This document shows, one piece after another, positions 19,976-26,642 of a DNA stretch of 63,145 nt (the stretch's first letter is position 1; each line of letters opens with the position of its first letter). A program made the translations under genes and the position numbers. A model generated the notes under the pieces. It ran no database searches and was not told where the DNA came from. It saw only the letters and a program-made list of their open reading frames with translations. The stretch is taken from the NCBI GenBank assembly GCA_947632005.1, contig CANRNU010000012.1, positions 1 to 63,145 of the forward strand. Direction: 5' to 3'. This DNA is from an uncultured Oscillospiraceae bacterium. GTDB lineage: Bacteria; Bacillota; Clostridia; Oscillospirales; Oscillospiraceae.

Positions 19976-21838
19976 ATGTACTGCGCGAAAAAGCTCACCG
20001 GATCCATCAGCTGGATCGGCGGCAACGACCGGCGCATCAGCCTTTTTGAAAACGTCTATCCTGTTCCCCACGGGGTCAGCTACAACTCCTATTTCGTCAG
20101 GGACGAGCAGAACGTGGTGGTGGACACGGTGGACCGGGCCGTCCGGGACGTGTTTTTCGAGAACATCGCCCACCTGCTCCAGGGCGGGGACCTGCACTGG
20201 CTCATCGTGAACCATATGGAGCCGGACCACGCCGCCACCATCGAGGAGCTGGCCCTGCGCTATCCCAGCGCGAAGATTGTCTGTAACGCCAAGATCGCCG
20301 CCATGATGAAGCAGTTTTTCACCTTCGACGTGGACAGCCGGGTCCATTTGGTGAAGGAGGGAGACACCCTCTGCACCGGCAGCCACACCTTCACCTTCGT
20401 CATGGCCCCCATGGTCCACTGGCCGGAGGTCATGATGACCTACGAGACGACGGAAAAGGCCCTGTTCTCCGCCGACGCCTTTGGCTCCTTCGGCGCCCTG
20501 GACGGGGGCATCTTCGCCGACCACGCCGCCCAGGACCAGGTCTATATGGACGAGGCCCGGCGGTACTACACCAACATCGTGGGCAAGTACGGCAGCCAGG
20601 TCCAGGCGGTGCTGAAAAAGGCCGCGGGGCTGGACATCGCCCTGCTGTGCCCCCTGCACGGCTATGTCTGGCGGCGGAACATCGGAGACCTGGTGGAGAA
20701 GTACGCCAAGTGGAGCGGTTACACCCCCGAGGACCGGCAGGTGCTCATCGCCTACGCCTCCGTTTACGGCCACACGGAGAACGCCGCCGAGATCATCGCT
20801 TCCCGGCTGGCCGAACAGGGCGTCCGCAGCGTGCTGTATGACGTGTCTGTGACCCACCCGTCCTACATCGTGGCCGAGGCGTTCCGCTGCAGTCACATCG
20901 TCTTCGCCTCCACCACCTACAACGCCGGCATTTTCGTGAACATGGAGAATCTCCTGCACGACATCGCCGCCCATAATCTCCAAAACCGGACCGTGGCCTT
21001 CGTGGAGAACGGCTCCTGGGCCCCCACGGCGGGCAAGCTCATGCGGGAGATCCTCTCCCCCCTGAAGAACATGACCTTCCTGGACACCGGCCTCACCCTT
21101 CGCTCCTCGCTGAAGGAGGACCAGCTGGCCCAGCTGCAGGCTCTGGCCGACGCGGTGGCCGCCTCCATCCGGGAGCAGGAGGAAGCCGCTCAGCCCAAGG
21201 GCCACAAGCCCGCCAAGGGCGATACGGCCGTCGACTCCGCCGCTCTGCGGGGCCTGACCTACGGTCTGTTCGTGCTGACGGCCAGGGACGGGGACAAGGA
21301 CAATGGCTGCATCATCAACACTGTCCAGCAGGTCACCGGCACGCCTCTGCGGGTCTCCATCGCGGTGAACAAGGAGAACTTCACCCACGATATGATCGCC
21401 AGGACCGGTCTTTTCAACGTCTCGGTGCTCGCCACCAGCGCGTCCATGGACCTTTTCAAGCACTTCGGCTTCCAGTCCGGCCGGGACACGGAGAAGCTGG
21501 CCAACTGGCCCGATGACTGCCGCAGCGAAAACGGCCTGTGCTACATCCCCGGCTGTACCAACGCTTTCATTTCCGCCAAGGTGGTGAACACCGTGGACTG
21601 CGGCACCCACACCCTGTTCATCGCGGACGTGACCGAGGCCCGGAAGCTCTCCGGCGAGCCCAGCGTGACCTATCAGTACTACTTCGACCACATCAAGCCC
21701 AAGCCCCCGGTGCTGGAGAAAAAGAAGGGCTTCGTGTGCAAGATCTGCGGCTATATCTACGAGGGCGACGAGTTGCCCGCAGACTTCGTCTGCCCCCTTT
21801 GCAAGCACGGTCCCGAGGACTTTGAGCCTCTGGCCTGA
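19976..21838 (+). CDS. Flavodiiron protein fused to flavin reductase and rubredoxin domains
   Basis: A 620-residue multidomain O2/NO reductase. Residues 1-250 are the metallo-beta-lactamase-like diiron domain with ligands His80, Glu82, Asp84, His85, His148, Asp167 and His228, all present. Residues 255-395 are a flavodoxin domain binding FMN (AYASVYGHTENAAE). Residues about 415-565 match flavin-reductase-like FMN-binding proteins (GLFVLTARDGDKDNGCIINT). Residues 580-620 are a rubredoxin with CKIC and CPLC. The extra modules may let NAD(P)H-derived electrons reach the diiron site within one chain. The start follows TGAGGAGGAAACCGT. A separate rubredoxin gene follows after 31 bases. Confidence 0.93.
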   Translation: MYCAKKLTGSISWIGGNDRRISLFENVYPVPHGVSYNSYFVRDEQNVVVDTVDRAVRDVFFENIAHLLQGGDLHWLIVNHMEPDHAATIEELALRYPSAKIVCNAKIAAMMKQFFTFDVDSRVHLVKEGDTLCTGSHTFTFVMAPMVHWPEVMMTYETTEKALFSADAFGSFGALDGGIFADHAAQDQVYMDEARRYYTNIVGKYGSQVQAVLKKAAGLDIALLCPLHGYVWRRNIGDLVEKYAKWSGYTPEDRQVLIAYASVYGHTENAAEIIASRLAEQGVRSVLYDVSVTHPSYIVAEAFRCSHIVFASTTYNAGIFVNMENLLHDIAAHNLQNRTVAFVENGSWAPTAGKLMREILSPLKNMTFLDTGLTLRSSLKEDQLAQLQALADAVAASIREQEEAAQPKGHKPAKGDTAVDSAALRGLTYGLFVLTARDGDKDNGCIINTVQQVTGTPLRVSIAVNKENFTHDMIARTGLFNVSVLATSASMDLFKHFGFQSGRDTEKLANWPDDCRSENGLCYIPGCTNAFISAKVVNTVDCGTHTLFIADVTEARKLSGEPSVTYQYYFDHIKPKPPVLEKKKGFVCKICGYIYEGDELPADFVCPLCKHGPEDFEPLA

Positions 21839-22037: not shown

Positions 22038-22063
22038 CCCGCCGGACCAAATGGTCCGGCGGG
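22038..22063 (-). terminator. Terminator of the minus-strand flavodiiron operon
   Basis: CCCGCCGGACCA and TGGTCCGGCGGG form a 12-bp stem with a two-base gap. On the minus strand it is followed by CTTTTTG, and it also separates the convergent rubredoxin gene. Confidence 0.85.
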
Positions 22064-22083: not shown

Positions 22084-23298
22084 TTACCCCTTGACCGACT
22101 CCACCAGGGCGGCGGCCAGGCTGTCCAGCTCTGCGGCCTTGCTCTCGTTGAGAGAGGAGGCCAGGCTGAGACGCTCGTTCAAAAGCGTCATGTTCTTCAG
22201 CTGGTCGGTGATGAACGCGCTCATCAGGTCGCCGCTCTTCACAGCCCAGGAGCCGTTTTCGATGATGGCAAAGGTCCGATTCTGGAGGTTGAGGGCCTTC
22301 ATGTCCATCAGGAAGTTGTGCATGACCGGGTAGATGCCCAGGTTATAGGTCACGCTGGCCAGGACGATGTGGCTGTACTTGAACGCCTCGGAGATGAGGT
22401 AGCTGACATGGGTGTTGGACACGTCGTACACCGCCACATTGGTAAGGCCCTGCTCACAGAGCTTGGCGGCCAGGCACTGGGCGGCAGCCTCGGTGTTGCC
22501 GTACATGGAGGCGTACACGATGAGCACGCCCTTCTCCTCCGGCTCATAGCGGCTCCACTTGTCGTACTTGTCGATAAAGTAGCCCAGGTCCTTGCGCCAG
22601 ACCGGCCCGTGGAGAGGGCAGATGAACTTGATCTGGTCCAGGATGCCGGCGGCCTTCTTCAAAAGCAGCTGAACATGGGGGCCGTACTTGCCCACGATGT
22701 TGGTCAGATACCGGCGGGCCTCATCCAGCCAGTCCCGGTCAAAGTTGACCTCGTCGGCAAAGAGCTTGCCGTCCAGGGCGATGAAGGAGCCGAAGGCGTC
22801 GGCAGAGAACAGCACACCGTTGGTGGTGTCGAACGTCACCATGGCCTCGGGCCAGTGGACCATGGGGGCCGCCACAAAGGTGACGGTGTGGTCCCCGAAG
22901 GAGAAGGTGTCCCCTTCCTTCACGCTGATGAGCTCATGGCTGTCCACATGGAAGCCGAACTGGCGCATGAGCAGGAACGCCTTGTCGTTGGAGATGATCT
23001 TCACCTGAGGCCAGCGGATCAGGACCTCCTCGATGGTGGCGGCGTGGTCCGGCTCCATGTGGTTGATGAGCAGATAGTCCAGGGGCCTGTCCCCCAGCAG
23101 ATACTCCATGTTCTGCAGAAGCTGGCGGCAGGCGGACCAGTCCACCGTGTCAAAGAGGACGGTCTTTTTGTCCAGCAGCAGATAGGCGTTGTAGCTGACG
23201 CCCTTGGGGATGGGATGGATGTTCTCAAAAAGGGTCAGGCGGTGGTCGTTGGCGCCCACCCAGTAAAGATTATCGGTCACTTCGCGCACGCAGTGCAT
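22084..23298 (-). CDS. Flavodiiron protein (two-domain type)
   Basis: A 404-residue flavodiiron protein of the minimal two-domain form. Diiron ligands His80, Glu82, Asp84, His85, His148, Asp167 and His230 are present, followed by the FMN-binding flavodoxin domain (IVYASMYGNTEAAAQ). Such enzymes reduce O2 to water and/or NO to N2O and need an external rubredoxin as donor. The ATG at 23298 follows AAAGGAGAGACGACAT. It begins 21 bases after the stop of an acyl-CoA dehydrogenase that carries its own rubredoxin domain, a strong sign that the fusion is its electron donor. Confidence 0.93.
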   Translation of the reverse strand: MHCVREVTDNLYWVGANDHRLTLFENIHPIPKGVSYNAYLLLDKKTVLFDTVDWSACRQLLQNMEYLLGDRPLDYLLINHMEPDHAATIEEVLIRWPQVKIISNDKAFLLMRQFGFHVDSHELISVKEGDTFSFGDHTVTFVAAPMVHWPEAMVTFDTTNGVLFSADAFGSFIALDGKLFADEVNFDRDWLDEARRYLTNIVGKYGPHVQLLLKKAAGILDQIKFICPLHGPVWRKDLGYFIDKYDKWSRYEPEEKGVLIVYASMYGNTEAAAQCLAAKLCEQGLTNVAVYDVSNTHVSYLISEAFKYSHIVLASVTYNLGIYPVMHNFLMDMKALNLQNRTFAIIENGSWAVKSGDLMSAFITDQLKNMTLLNERLSLASSLNESKAAELDSLAAALVESVKG

Positions 23299-23319
23299 AT
23301 GTCGTCTCTCCTTTCCGTT

Positions 23320-25233
23320 TTACGCTTCGATGAACTGGGCCTTGCTCTCGCCGCACTCCGGGCACACCCACTCCTCCGGCAGCTTGTCGAAGGTGGTGCC
23401 GGCGGGCACCTCCGCGTCCGGGTCGCCCTTTTCGGGGATGTACTCATAGCCGCAGCCGCCGCACACATACCGGGGGCCGATGGGCTCCGGCTTGGGAGGC
23501 GCGGGCCGTTTGATCTTCACCATGGGGCCGGCGGGCTTCTTCTCGCCGGTGTCCAGCGCCTGGGCCAGCAGGGGCAATATCTCGTTGACGTCCCCCACAA
23601 TGCCGTAGTCACAGTTTTTGAAGATGGGCGCCCCGGCGTTTTTGTTGATGGCCACGATGGTGGAGGCGTCCTTGATGCCCTTCAGGTGCTGGATGGCGCC
23701 GGAGATGCCGCAGGCGATGTACAGATTGCCGGTGAACTTCTGGCCGGACATGCCCACATACCGGTTCAGGGGCACGTATTTCAAGGTCTCAGCCACGGGG
23801 CGGGAAGAGCCGATGGCCGCGCCGGCGGCTGCCGCCAGGTCCTTGATGAGCTTCATATTCTCCTTTTCGCCGATGCCCTTGCCTGCAGACACCACCCGTT
23901 CCGCCTGGGCGATGGGGGTGTCCATGGGGATGCCCACGGTGAAGTCGTAGCCGTCCTTTTTGAGGGCCGCCACCAAAGCGTCCACCCGCTCCTTGGCGTC
24001 GCCCTCCCGGAAGATGGTCCGTTTCCGCACGCCGGTGATGGGGGCGGGCTTCTTCGGGGCGCTGCCGCCGCCTCCGCCTGCGCTCTTGGGGGCCTTGCCC
24101 AAAATGGCCGAGGAGATGACCACTCTTTGAATCTCGTTGGTGCCCTCATAGATGGTGGTGATCTTGGCGTCCCGGTAGGCGCGCTCCACCTCCATGCCCT
24201 TCATGAAGCCCGCGCCGCCGTGGATCTGCAGGGCGTCGTTGGTGACCTGCAGGGCGATGTCGGAGGCGTACATCTTGGCCATGGCCGCCTCCATGGCGTA
24301 GGGCTCGTGGTGCTCCTTCAGCTCCGCGGCGGAGTAGACCAAAAACCGGGCGCAGCGCAGCTTGGTGGCCATGTCCGCGATCTTGAAGCTCAGAGCCTGC
24401 TGGAAGGCGATGGGCTTGCCGAACTGGATGCGCTCCTTGGCGTAATTGACCGCGTTCTCATAGGCCCCCTGGGCGATGCCCAGGGCCTGGGCCGCGATGC
24501 CGATGCGGCCGCCGTCCAGGGTGGCCATGGCGATCTTGAAGCCCTGGCCCTCCTTGCCCAGCAGGTTCTCCTTGGGCACCTTCACGTCGTTGAAAATGAG
24601 CTCCGCCGTGGTGGAAGAACGGATGCCCATCTTGTCGTAATGGTCACCGAAGTCGAAGCCCTTCCAGCCCTTCTCCACGATGAACGCACTGATGCCCCGG
24701 GTACCGATGTCCGGGGTGGTCACGGCAAAGACCACGTATGTATCCGCCTTGGGGGCATTGGTGATGAAGATCTTCCCGCCGTTGAGAAGGTAATAGTCTC
24801 CTTTGTCCACGGCGGTGGTCTCGGTACCGCCGGCGTCAGAGCCCGCGTTGGGCTCGGTCAGGCCGAAGGCGCCGATCTTCTCCCCCTTGGCCAGGGGGAC
24901 CAGGTACTTCTTCTTCTGCTCCTCCGTGCCAAAGGCAAAGATAGGATAGCTGCCCAGAGACACATGGGCGGACAGGATGACGCCCGCGCCGCCGTCCACC
25001 CGGGCCAGCTCCTCCACGGCGATGGCATAGCTCAGCACATCCAAGCCCACGCCGCCGTATTCCTTCGGATAGGGGATGCCCATGAGCCCCATCTCGCCCA
25101 GCTTCTTCACGGCCTCCGTGGGGAACTCATTGGCCTGGTCCAGGGCAAAGGCGATGGGTTTGATCTCCTCCTCCGCGAATTTCCGGATCCTGGCCCGCAG
25201 GGCCTCGTGGTCCTGCGTCGTCTGATATAACAT
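23320..25233 (-). CDS. Acyl-CoA dehydrogenase-EtfA FAD domain-rubredoxin fusion
   Basis: A 637-residue three-part protein. Residues 1-380 are a complete acyl-CoA dehydrogenase of the short-chain/butyryl type, with GAFGLTEPNAGSD and the catalytic Glu363 in IYEGTNEIQR. Residues about 440-556 are the C-terminal FAD-binding domain of electron-transfer-flavoprotein alpha (SSRPVAET, VGMSGQ, ACGISGAIQHL, AINKNAGAPIF, DYGIVGDV). Residues 588-637 are a rubredoxin with Cys591/594 and Cys624/627. Flexible linkers rich in Gly and Pro join them. Electrons from an acyl-CoA could pass FAD, Etf FAD and rubredoxin iron to the flavodiiron protein encoded 21 bases downstream. The ATG at 25233 follows AAAAAGGAGGAGCGCGT. 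Confidence 0.92.
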   Translation of the reverse strand: MLYQTTQDHEALRARIRKFAEEEIKPIAFALDQANEFPTEAVKKLGEMGLMGIPYPKEYGGVGLDVLSYAIAVEELARVDGGAGVILSAHVSLGSYPIFAFGTEEQKKKYLVPLAKGEKIGAFGLTEPNAGSDAGGTETTAVDKGDYYLLNGGKIFITNAPKADTYVVFAVTTPDIGTRGISAFIVEKGWKGFDFGDHYDKMGIRSSTTAELIFNDVKVPKENLLGKEGQGFKIAMATLDGGRIGIAAQALGIAQGAYENAVNYAKERIQFGKPIAFQQALSFKIADMATKLRCARFLVYSAAELKEHHEPYAMEAAMAKMYASDIALQVTNDALQIHGGAGFMKGMEVERAYRDAKITTIYEGTNEIQRVVISSAILGKAPKSAGGGGGSAPKKPAPITGVRKRTIFREGDAKERVDALVAALKKDGYDFTVGIPMDTPIAQAERVVSAGKGIGEKENMKLIKDLAAAAGAAIGSSRPVAETLKYVPLNRYVGMSGQKFTGNLYIACGISGAIQHLKGIKDASTIVAINKNAGAPIFKNCDYGIVGDVNEILPLLAQALDTGEKKPAGPMVKIKRPAPPKPEPIGPRYVCGGCGYEYIPEKGDPDAEVPAGTTFDKLPEEWVCPECGESKAQFIEA

Positions 25234-25295
25234 ACGCGCTCCTCCTTTTTTCATTTTCCGCCCTCCCGCCGCAGACGCCGGGAGTTTGATAATAT

Positions 25296-25323
25296 AGTAT
25301 ACTGCATTGTTTAAATTTGTCAA
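25296..25323 (-). promoter_or_regulatory. Promoter of the acyl-CoA dehydrogenase fusion operon
   Basis: On the minus strand TTGACA and TATACT are 16 bases apart and lie about 65 bases upstream of the start codon. Confidence 0.75.
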
Positions 25324-25520
25324 TAATCCCGCTGTCTATTTTGTATTTCCGGTCAAATTGCATAAAGTCATCCCGTTTCCGCCAACGGTGTGCCCATATC
25401 ACGGCGGGATGCTCAGGCAAAAATGCATTGACCTATAGCATTTTCCTGAAAAGTGTTTTATAATTTGTGAGAAGCATCCAAGACCCCAAACATATCAACA
25501 TTGAGGAAAGGAAAAGGAAC

Positions 25521-26642
25521 ATGAAAAAGCTGATCGCATTGATGATGTGCGCCATGCTGCTGCTGAGCGGCTGCTCCGCCGTGACGGCGAACGGCCCCGG
25601 CACGGGCATCCAGATCCGGGATCTGGTCGTCGGCAGCTCCGATGGCAGGACCACAGACCTGACCGGCATGTCTGTCACCGTTGAGAGCGCCGAATCCGAC
25701 ACCTCCCTGGGCGCCCGTATCTCCGTCGCCGCCGGCGGCCAGGAGAGCGCCGACCTGATCCTGGGCATGGTGGGGCAGTATCTGTACCTCTCCGCGGACG
25801 GCATCGACGGCACCCATACCCTCGCCCTGGACCTGGACCGGGTGATCCAGGTCCTGAACGGCGCGTATAACTCCATCCTGAGCACCATCACCGGCATCCT
25901 CCCCGCCATCTTCTCCGGGGAAGACCTCCCCGAGGGCGCCGCCTTCCGGGACTTCCCCGAGGAGATACCGGAGGATGATCTGGACGCCCTCCTGGCCGAA
26001 CTGGAGGAGGTCGGATCTCCGCTGGAGGATTACCTGGAGGACGCGGACCCCGCTCCTTCCGTCACGACGGACCCGGCAGCCGAAAAGATCGATGAGATCA
26101 TCAACCGGTGCGTGACTGCTGAAGAGCAGCAGATCGAAGGCGAGGCCTTCCAGACCCTCACGCTGAATTTCGCCGAGGCGGATATGGCGGAGCTGTTCGA
26201 CACCATCATGATGTCCGACTTGAGCGGCGTGACGCTCGGGCAGTTCCTGGCGTCCCGGAACATCTCCTGCGCCCTGACCGGCACCGTCACCGGCAACGAG
26301 GATTTCTCCCGGTTCCTCATCGACCTGACGCCTGTCATCTCTGCCGAGGGCGATATGCTCACGCTGCCCTGCGTCATTGACGGGATGTCGGCAGACGGTT
26401 CCGTGGGTGTCTCCGTCAGCAGCGCTCAGGACGGCCAGGACCTGGCTTCCCTCTCCCTGACCTACGTCCGCACCACGGTGGTGAGCGCCGACTGGCTGCC
26501 TGCGGAGCCGGGCCCGGAGACCGTCATGCTCACCGAGCTGTCCCCGAATGGGGCGCTGGACGCCTTCACCGGCGCGCTGGACGCCTACCTGGAGCAGATC
26601 GGCAACATGGCGGAGACCGTATCCCAGGCCAACGCCGGCTGA
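25521..26642 (+). CDS. Hypothetical lipoprotein, 373 residues
   Basis: The ATG at 25521 follows AAAGGAAAAGGAAC. Residues 1-18 are a lipoprotein signal ending in LLSGC. The mature protein is acidic, rich in Asp, Ser and Thr, with a Pro/Glu-rich middle (EEIPEDDLDALLAELEEV), and no catalytic motif or family is recognised. A -10 TATAAT lies at 25459-25464. A strong terminator follows, so it is monocistronic and unrelated to the leu operon downstream. Confidence 0.75.
   Translation: MKKLIALMMCAMLLLSGCSAVTANGPGTGIQIRDLVVGSSDGRTTDLTGMSVTVESAESDTSLGARISVAAGGQESADLILGMVGQYLYLSADGIDGTHTLALDLDRVIQVLNGAYNSILSTITGILPAIFSGEDLPEGAAFRDFPEEIPEDDLDALLAELEEVGSPLEDYLEDADPAPSVTTDPAAEKIDEIINRCVTAEEQQIEGEAFQTLTLNFAEADMAELFDTIMMSDLSGVTLGQFLASRNISCALTGTVTGNEDFSRFLIDLTPVISAEGDMLTLPCVIDGMSADGSVGVSVSSAQDGQDLASLSLTYVRTTVVSADWLPAEPGPETVMLTELSPNGALDAFTGALDAYLEQIGNMAETVSQANAG

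Follow-up and report, generated by a model that had tools for sequence, protein, structure and literature searches.

Two adjacent genes on the minus strand of contig CANRNU010000012.1, a 63,145-nucleotide stretch from an uncultured Oscillospiraceae bacterium that was analysed whole and is referred to here as the window, encode an acyl-CoA dehydrogenase-EtfA-rubredoxin (BCR-type) fusion of 637 aa (23320..25233) and, directly downstream, a class A flavodiiron protein of 404 aa (22084..23298). Based on the translation, the Pfam and NCBIfam extents and individual residues, the fusion comprises an acyl-CoA dehydrogenase (residues 1-378), the C-terminal FAD domain of EtfA (approximately 436-562) and a rubredoxin (588-634). 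All five of its Pfam matches exceed their own curated cut-offs: Acyl-CoA_dh_N (6-118), Acyl-CoA_dh_M (122-217), Acyl-CoA_dh_1 (229-377), ETF_alpha (441-521) and Rubredoxin (588-634). The flavodiiron protein combines a metallo-beta-lactamase-like diiron domain with a flavodoxin domain (Pfam ODP and Flavodoxin_1). Residues H80, E82, D84, H148, D167 and H230, which we take to be the diiron ligands, are all present, and its PDB relatives are labelled nitric oxide reductase, flavorubredoxin and rubredoxin:oxygen oxidoreductase, with 1ycf as the closest sequence match. An initial annotation of this DNA had, without naming the strand, read the locus as a complete dehydrogenase joined to an EtfA FAD domain and a rubredoxin, with a two-domain flavodiiron protein 21 bases downstream, and the Pfam results and the intergenic gap bear this out. 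The residues it had singled out, Glu363 and the cysteine pairs Cys591/594 and Cys624/627, are found at these positions when numbering starts from the ATG at 25233.

This ATG is most likely the start of the fusion, as it is preceded by AAAAAAGGAGG. We discarded the mechanical start of the open reading frame, a TTG at 25323, since ATG 25233 has a strong ribosome-binding site in front of it and a promoter-like site overlaps the extension. The gap between the two genes (23299..23319, minus strand, 21 bases) holds AAAGGAGA, the ribosome-binding site of the flavodiiron gene. Upstream of the pair on the minus strand lies the promoter-like site (25296..25323), TTGACA-16-TATACT with 11 of 12 consensus matches, and past the flavodiiron gene lies a terminator-like hairpin (22038..22063, minus strand) of 11 pairs followed by a T run. 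Both come from consensus scans only, which returned 4 promoter-like sites in 3.9 kb where 0.7 were expected and 8 terminator-like sites where 3.3 were expected. Their positions on either side of the pair fit a single two-gene transcript.

Alignment with the host's own EtfA indicates that the fusion has kept the C-terminal FAD domain only, the N-terminal part being missing. Residues that we assume form the EtfA FAD site are retained in this domain, and PDB ETF alpha chains match it; by sequence, each cofactor site of the predicted electron path is present. The closest PDB match to the dehydrogenase domain is 5ol2_C, whose entry label is acyl-CoA dehydrogenase and which we take to be Bcd of the C. 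difficile Bcd-EtfAB complex, and several of the nearest chains are labelled butyryl-CoA or short-chain acyl-CoA dehydrogenase. Among the PDB matches listed (the best 60 of 205 for the whole chain and the best 60 of 79 for the tail), there is no chain spanning the dehydrogenase and EtfA parts and no solved structure of the fusion. There is no EtfB at the locus: PF01012, the ETF N-domain of both EtfB and EtfA, has matches in the host genome only on contigs 19, 28, 36 and 70.

The pairing of the two genes is conserved among relatives. We found the fusion in 14 of 197 genomes of the same order, its own and 13 others, in which the fusion tail is 73-85% identical to that of the window; the next match (E 2e-32) falls on an EtfA stretch. 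The flavodiiron gene lies next downstream on the same strand in each of these other genomes (13/13). A search of 398 genomes at the phylum level, in which up to three candidates per genome were scored, gave a full-length fusion match in five: the source genome, G012, which is already counted at the order level, and G490, G266 and G222, all of which have the flavodiiron gene next downstream (3/3). In a collection of named genomes, from which we took the best 80 of at least 559 confirmed stretches, the flavodiiron gene directly follows the fusion at 78 of the 80 loci, and the other two stop at a contig edge. The culturable gut commensal Flavonifractor plautii is among the carriers of the pair (L127). 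These 80 loci overlap with the 16 order- and phylum-level genomes, and the counts are not additive. Over the 78 paired loci the fusion is 80-96% identical and the flavodiiron protein 73-96% identical to the window copies. No Fusobacterium title occurs among these best 80 of at least 559.

As controls we used 45 loci: 24 plain dehydrogenase matches, 16 EtfA matches, 4 other host etf loci and the locus of a related, rubredoxin-less fusion in genome G287. None has a flavodiiron gene beside it (0/45, where the 40 dehydrogenase and EtfA matches cover no more than about 1.5 kb on either side), as compared to 78/78 readable named-genome fusion loci, and chance adjacency was rejected. Glu363 and Cys591/594/624/627 are invariant in 80/80 named-genome and 16/16 order- and phylum-level fusions. 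The flavodiiron ligand residues are kept wherever they can be read and are complete in 16/16 order- and phylum-level genomes; 77 of the 80 named-genome flavodiiron alignments are strong, and 2, 3 and 4 of these are unreadable at H148, D167 and H230, respectively. With no variation in the catalytic glutamate or the four cysteines and with the adjacency conserved, the arrangement is not due to chance. The initial annotation had made conservation of this adjacency a test of its reading, and the survey supports it. What the survey adds is a controlled count: wherever the sequence downstream of a rubredoxin-bearing fusion can be read, the pairing is kept.

A system of this kind has already been described. 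In Fusobacterium nucleatum, as given in excerpts of a 2025 review (PMC12288474), the flavodiiron protein FN1423 is bicistronic with a fusion of butyryl-CoA dehydrogenase, EtfA C-terminus and rubredoxin, and FN1424-FN1423 constitute the butyryl-CoA oxygen oxidoreductase (BOOR), the work of Bystrom and Wolthers (2024, doi 10.1021/acs.biochem.4c00279); an excerpt of PMC12630350 (JBC 2025) likewise gives the BOOR genes as FN1423-FN1424. According to the same excerpts of PMC12288474, the enzyme forms an alpha4beta4 complex that oxidises butyryl-CoA, reduces O2 to water and lacks nitric oxide (NO) reductase activity, and many obligately anaerobic Firmicutes, dominant butyrogens among them, encode BOOR alongside Rnf and Bcd-Etf. 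In gut Clostridia the BOOR pair adjoins an Rrf2 regulator that resembles NsrR, as stated in an excerpt of a 2026 preprint (PMC13404960).

On the strength of its architecture and synteny, and to a lesser degree of its host context, the window pair is very probably a butyryl-CoA:oxygen oxidoreductase of the BOOR type, and as such an ordinary copy of a known system. The domain order, Bcd, EtfA C-terminus and rubredoxin in one chain, is that of F. nucleatum BOOR, and in both a class A flavodiiron gene adjoins the fusion, here in one putative operon. Both genomes also have a second flavodiiron gene and Rnf. The window pair differs in coming from another phylum, in that the second flavodiiron gene is a convergent neighbour of class H type, and in that a host Bcd is not securely identified. 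The BOOR homologues of the gut Clostridia Roseburia inulinivorans, Faecalibacterium prausnitzii and Eisenbergiella tayi, as far as the excerpt of PMC13404960 describes them, are the same two genes with the same Pfam architecture, but lie beside the Rrf2 regulator, to which the window has no match.

With substrate and acceptor taken over from the F. nucleatum work, Glu363 would be the base with which the dehydrogenase domain oxidises butyryl-CoA, or another short-chain acyl-CoA like it, to the enoyl-CoA. Electrons, in the order that the domains suggest, would then leave the dehydrogenase FAD for the EtfA-domain FAD and the rubredoxin iron, and from there reach the FMN and the diiron centre of the partner flavodiiron protein, where O2 would be reduced to water. 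This would be a simple downhill chain without bifurcation, since the EtfB flavin that bifurcation needs is absent. Compared to the bifurcating Bcd-EtfAB complex, which we take PDB 5ol2 to represent, the window has a homologous dehydrogenase and EtfA FAD domain, but the fusion lacks EtfB and the EtfA N-terminal domain, has gained a rubredoxin and is a single chain; an EtfB with its bifurcating FAD was not found in the operon, and bifurcation was rejected. Because butyryl-CoA is a weak reductant, O2 would be removed without direct NADH cost, and the crotonyl-CoA formed could go back to a Bcd-ETF and Rnf system. If the function carries over, these gut anaerobes would remove O2 with butyryl-CoA instead of NADH, at a cost in butyrate, with a bearing on the survival of strict anaerobes near the gut wall. 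The route from acyl-CoA through FAD and rubredoxin iron to O2, and the argument against bifurcation from the missing EtfB, both of which the initial annotation had put forward, agree with what the excerpts of PMC12288474 report for the F. nucleatum pair. Its proposal of NO as an acceptor finds no support there, and its statement that a dedicated function had not been settled is out of date, the pair having been characterised as BOOR in 2024.

The host assembly, which is 77.6% complete and 5% contaminated, encodes on contig 36 a butyryl-CoA:acetate CoA-transferase (762.5 bits against a cut-off of 674.8) and a thiolase (460.8 for TIGR01930 against 240.6), and it has an rnfC (500.5 against 246). 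Contigs 19 and 28 each carry a dehydrogenase-EtfB-EtfA cluster, and the one on contig 28 is followed by a gene of enoyl-CoA hydratase type that scores below the cut-off of its top NCBIfam model. The dehydrogenases of the two clusters, which besides the fusion are the assembly's sole matches to the acyl-CoA dehydrogenase N-domain, cannot confidently be called Bcd because they are only 49% identical to the fusion domain, are set apart from the other tree rows by a long branch and score below all NCBIfam cut-offs. A third EtfB-EtfA pair begins at the edge of contig 70, and contig 36 has a fragment of EtfA at its own edge, close to the CoA-transferase gene; a Bcd beside either may be absent from the assembly. 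The host thus has butyrate-type genes and Rnf, while the full set of BOOR, Bcd-Etf and Rnf is not securely present. The contig 19 and 28 clusters (L049 5020-8105 and L050 4889-7941) are nearly identical, with differing upstream genes that resemble, by eye, 2-oxoacid:ferredoxin oxidoreductases, and may reflect either a true duplication or an assembly that mixes strains. A similar doubling is apparent for contigs 36 and 70.

Beyond the end of the pair, a second flavodiiron gene (19976-21838, plus strand) converges tail to tail with that of the pair, and the assembly has no ODP-family match besides these two genes. By Pfam, its protein has a flavodiiron core, a flavin reductase-like domain and a short rubredoxin (Cys588/591/606/609), and it fits the class H flavodiiron type as described in excerpts of PMC6033852. 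Class F and class H proteins, which in these excerpts have a built-in NAD(P)H route, share with BOOR a flavodiiron core and a rubredoxin-type centre, but take their electrons from NAD(P)H whereas the source for BOOR is an acyl-CoA. With the flavin reductase part alone as query, a class H-type neighbour was found at 0 of 96 related loci, 73 of which span at least 3 kb downstream of the fusion.

On the other side of the pair, 32 of the 80 loci with readable upstream sequence, the window counted, have an Rrf2-family-like regulator immediately before the fusion and on the same strand (phmmer with one query, the BOOR-adjacent gene, at E 1e-4; for example L120 3285-3740). These genes agree with the regulator described in the excerpt of PMC13404960. 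The same query had no match in the window, nor in the 9 readable nearest kin among L087-L098. When the host CymR/IscR-like gene served as query instead, 7 of 96 loci gave a match, 6 of them just upstream of the fusion on the same strand, which is an underestimate. In the window, a divergent gene (25467-26642, plus strand) just upstream of the pair encodes a predicted lipoprotein, judged by eye, with no Pfam match at E 0.001.

Several observations weigh against the assignment as a BOOR. The fusion falls below every NCBIfam cut-off among the best 25 of 31 models, the top one being AcrC (acryloyl-CoA reductase; 497 against 640), which gives no firm substrate specificity. A true Bcd of the host was not securely found in the incomplete assembly, and a related fusion, that of G287, has neither a rubredoxin nor a neighbouring flavodiiron gene. 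The named-genome adjacency count, drawn from the best 80 of at least 559 confirmed stretches, leans to close relatives. The AcrC score bears most directly on the idea that the same machine uses another physiological acyl-CoA, such as a propionyl-, isobutyryl- or acryloyl-type substrate. We regard this as quite unlikely: the contig 28 dehydrogenase also has AcrC as its top model (447), so that the score does not discriminate, and the butyryl-CoA:acetate CoA-transferase above its curated cut-off and the nearest PDB chains named butyryl-CoA or short-chain acyl-CoA dehydrogenases argue for butyryl-CoA.

It is also unlikely that the same electron chain serves NO, or NO and O2 together, as the physiological acceptor in this lineage. 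Class A flavodiiron proteins as a family can reduce NO, and 1ycf, the closest PDB sequence match, is labelled nitric oxide reductase. The resemblance of the BOOR-adjacent regulator to NsrR (PMC13404960, in excerpt) points the same way, but the query with that regulator had no match in the window and the F. nucleatum complex is reported, in the excerpts of PMC12288474, to be devoid of NO reductase activity. The direction reported there, from butyryl-CoA to O2, argues in turn against the opposite flow, in which reduced rubredoxin would feed the fusion as a non-bifurcating enoyl-CoA reductase and the flavodiiron protein would be no more than a protective neighbour. For this reading, it is well established that acyl-CoA dehydrogenases can work in either direction around 0 mV and that rubredoxin potentials are similar, and with no secure Bcd among the other host dehydrogenases, the assembly offers no proof of a separate crotonyl-CoA reductase. 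Strict pairing with a flavodiiron gene would nevertheless be unexpected for a free-standing reductase, and we consider such a role highly improbable.

The 25 fusions selected for a tree of 52 dehydrogenase domains cluster as a single group (support 100/99). Its sister (100/99) is the dehydrogenase-EtfA fusion of G287 (L083 9386-11071, 561 aa), a row flagged for its long branch and unsure placement. The G287 flavodiiron-type genes sit on other contigs, and no second rubredoxin-less fusion was found among the 13 genomes of its family, G287 included. This single example may be an ancestral form or the result of loss. The G287 fusion adjoins genes that resemble, by eye, an amino-acid ABC transporter.

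What remains of interest at this locus is the class H-type gene facing the pair, the lack of an Rrf2 gene and the relative that has no rubredoxin. It is conceivable, though doubtful, that in a lineage without the BOOR-side Rrf2 gene the pair and the facing class H-type gene, which would presumably be fed by NAD(P)H, form a compact two-donor module for defence against O2 or NO, and that the pair differs from the F. nucleatum enzyme in gas selectivity or acyl-CoA preference. In a wider and equally tentative variant of this idea, the G287 fusion would be a separate acyl-CoA oxidising unit and BOOR would have been built from such a form. Elsewhere in the window, between approximately 52000 and 62000, the G+C content falls from about 0.61 to 0.42-0.53, and this stretch may be an acquired region.

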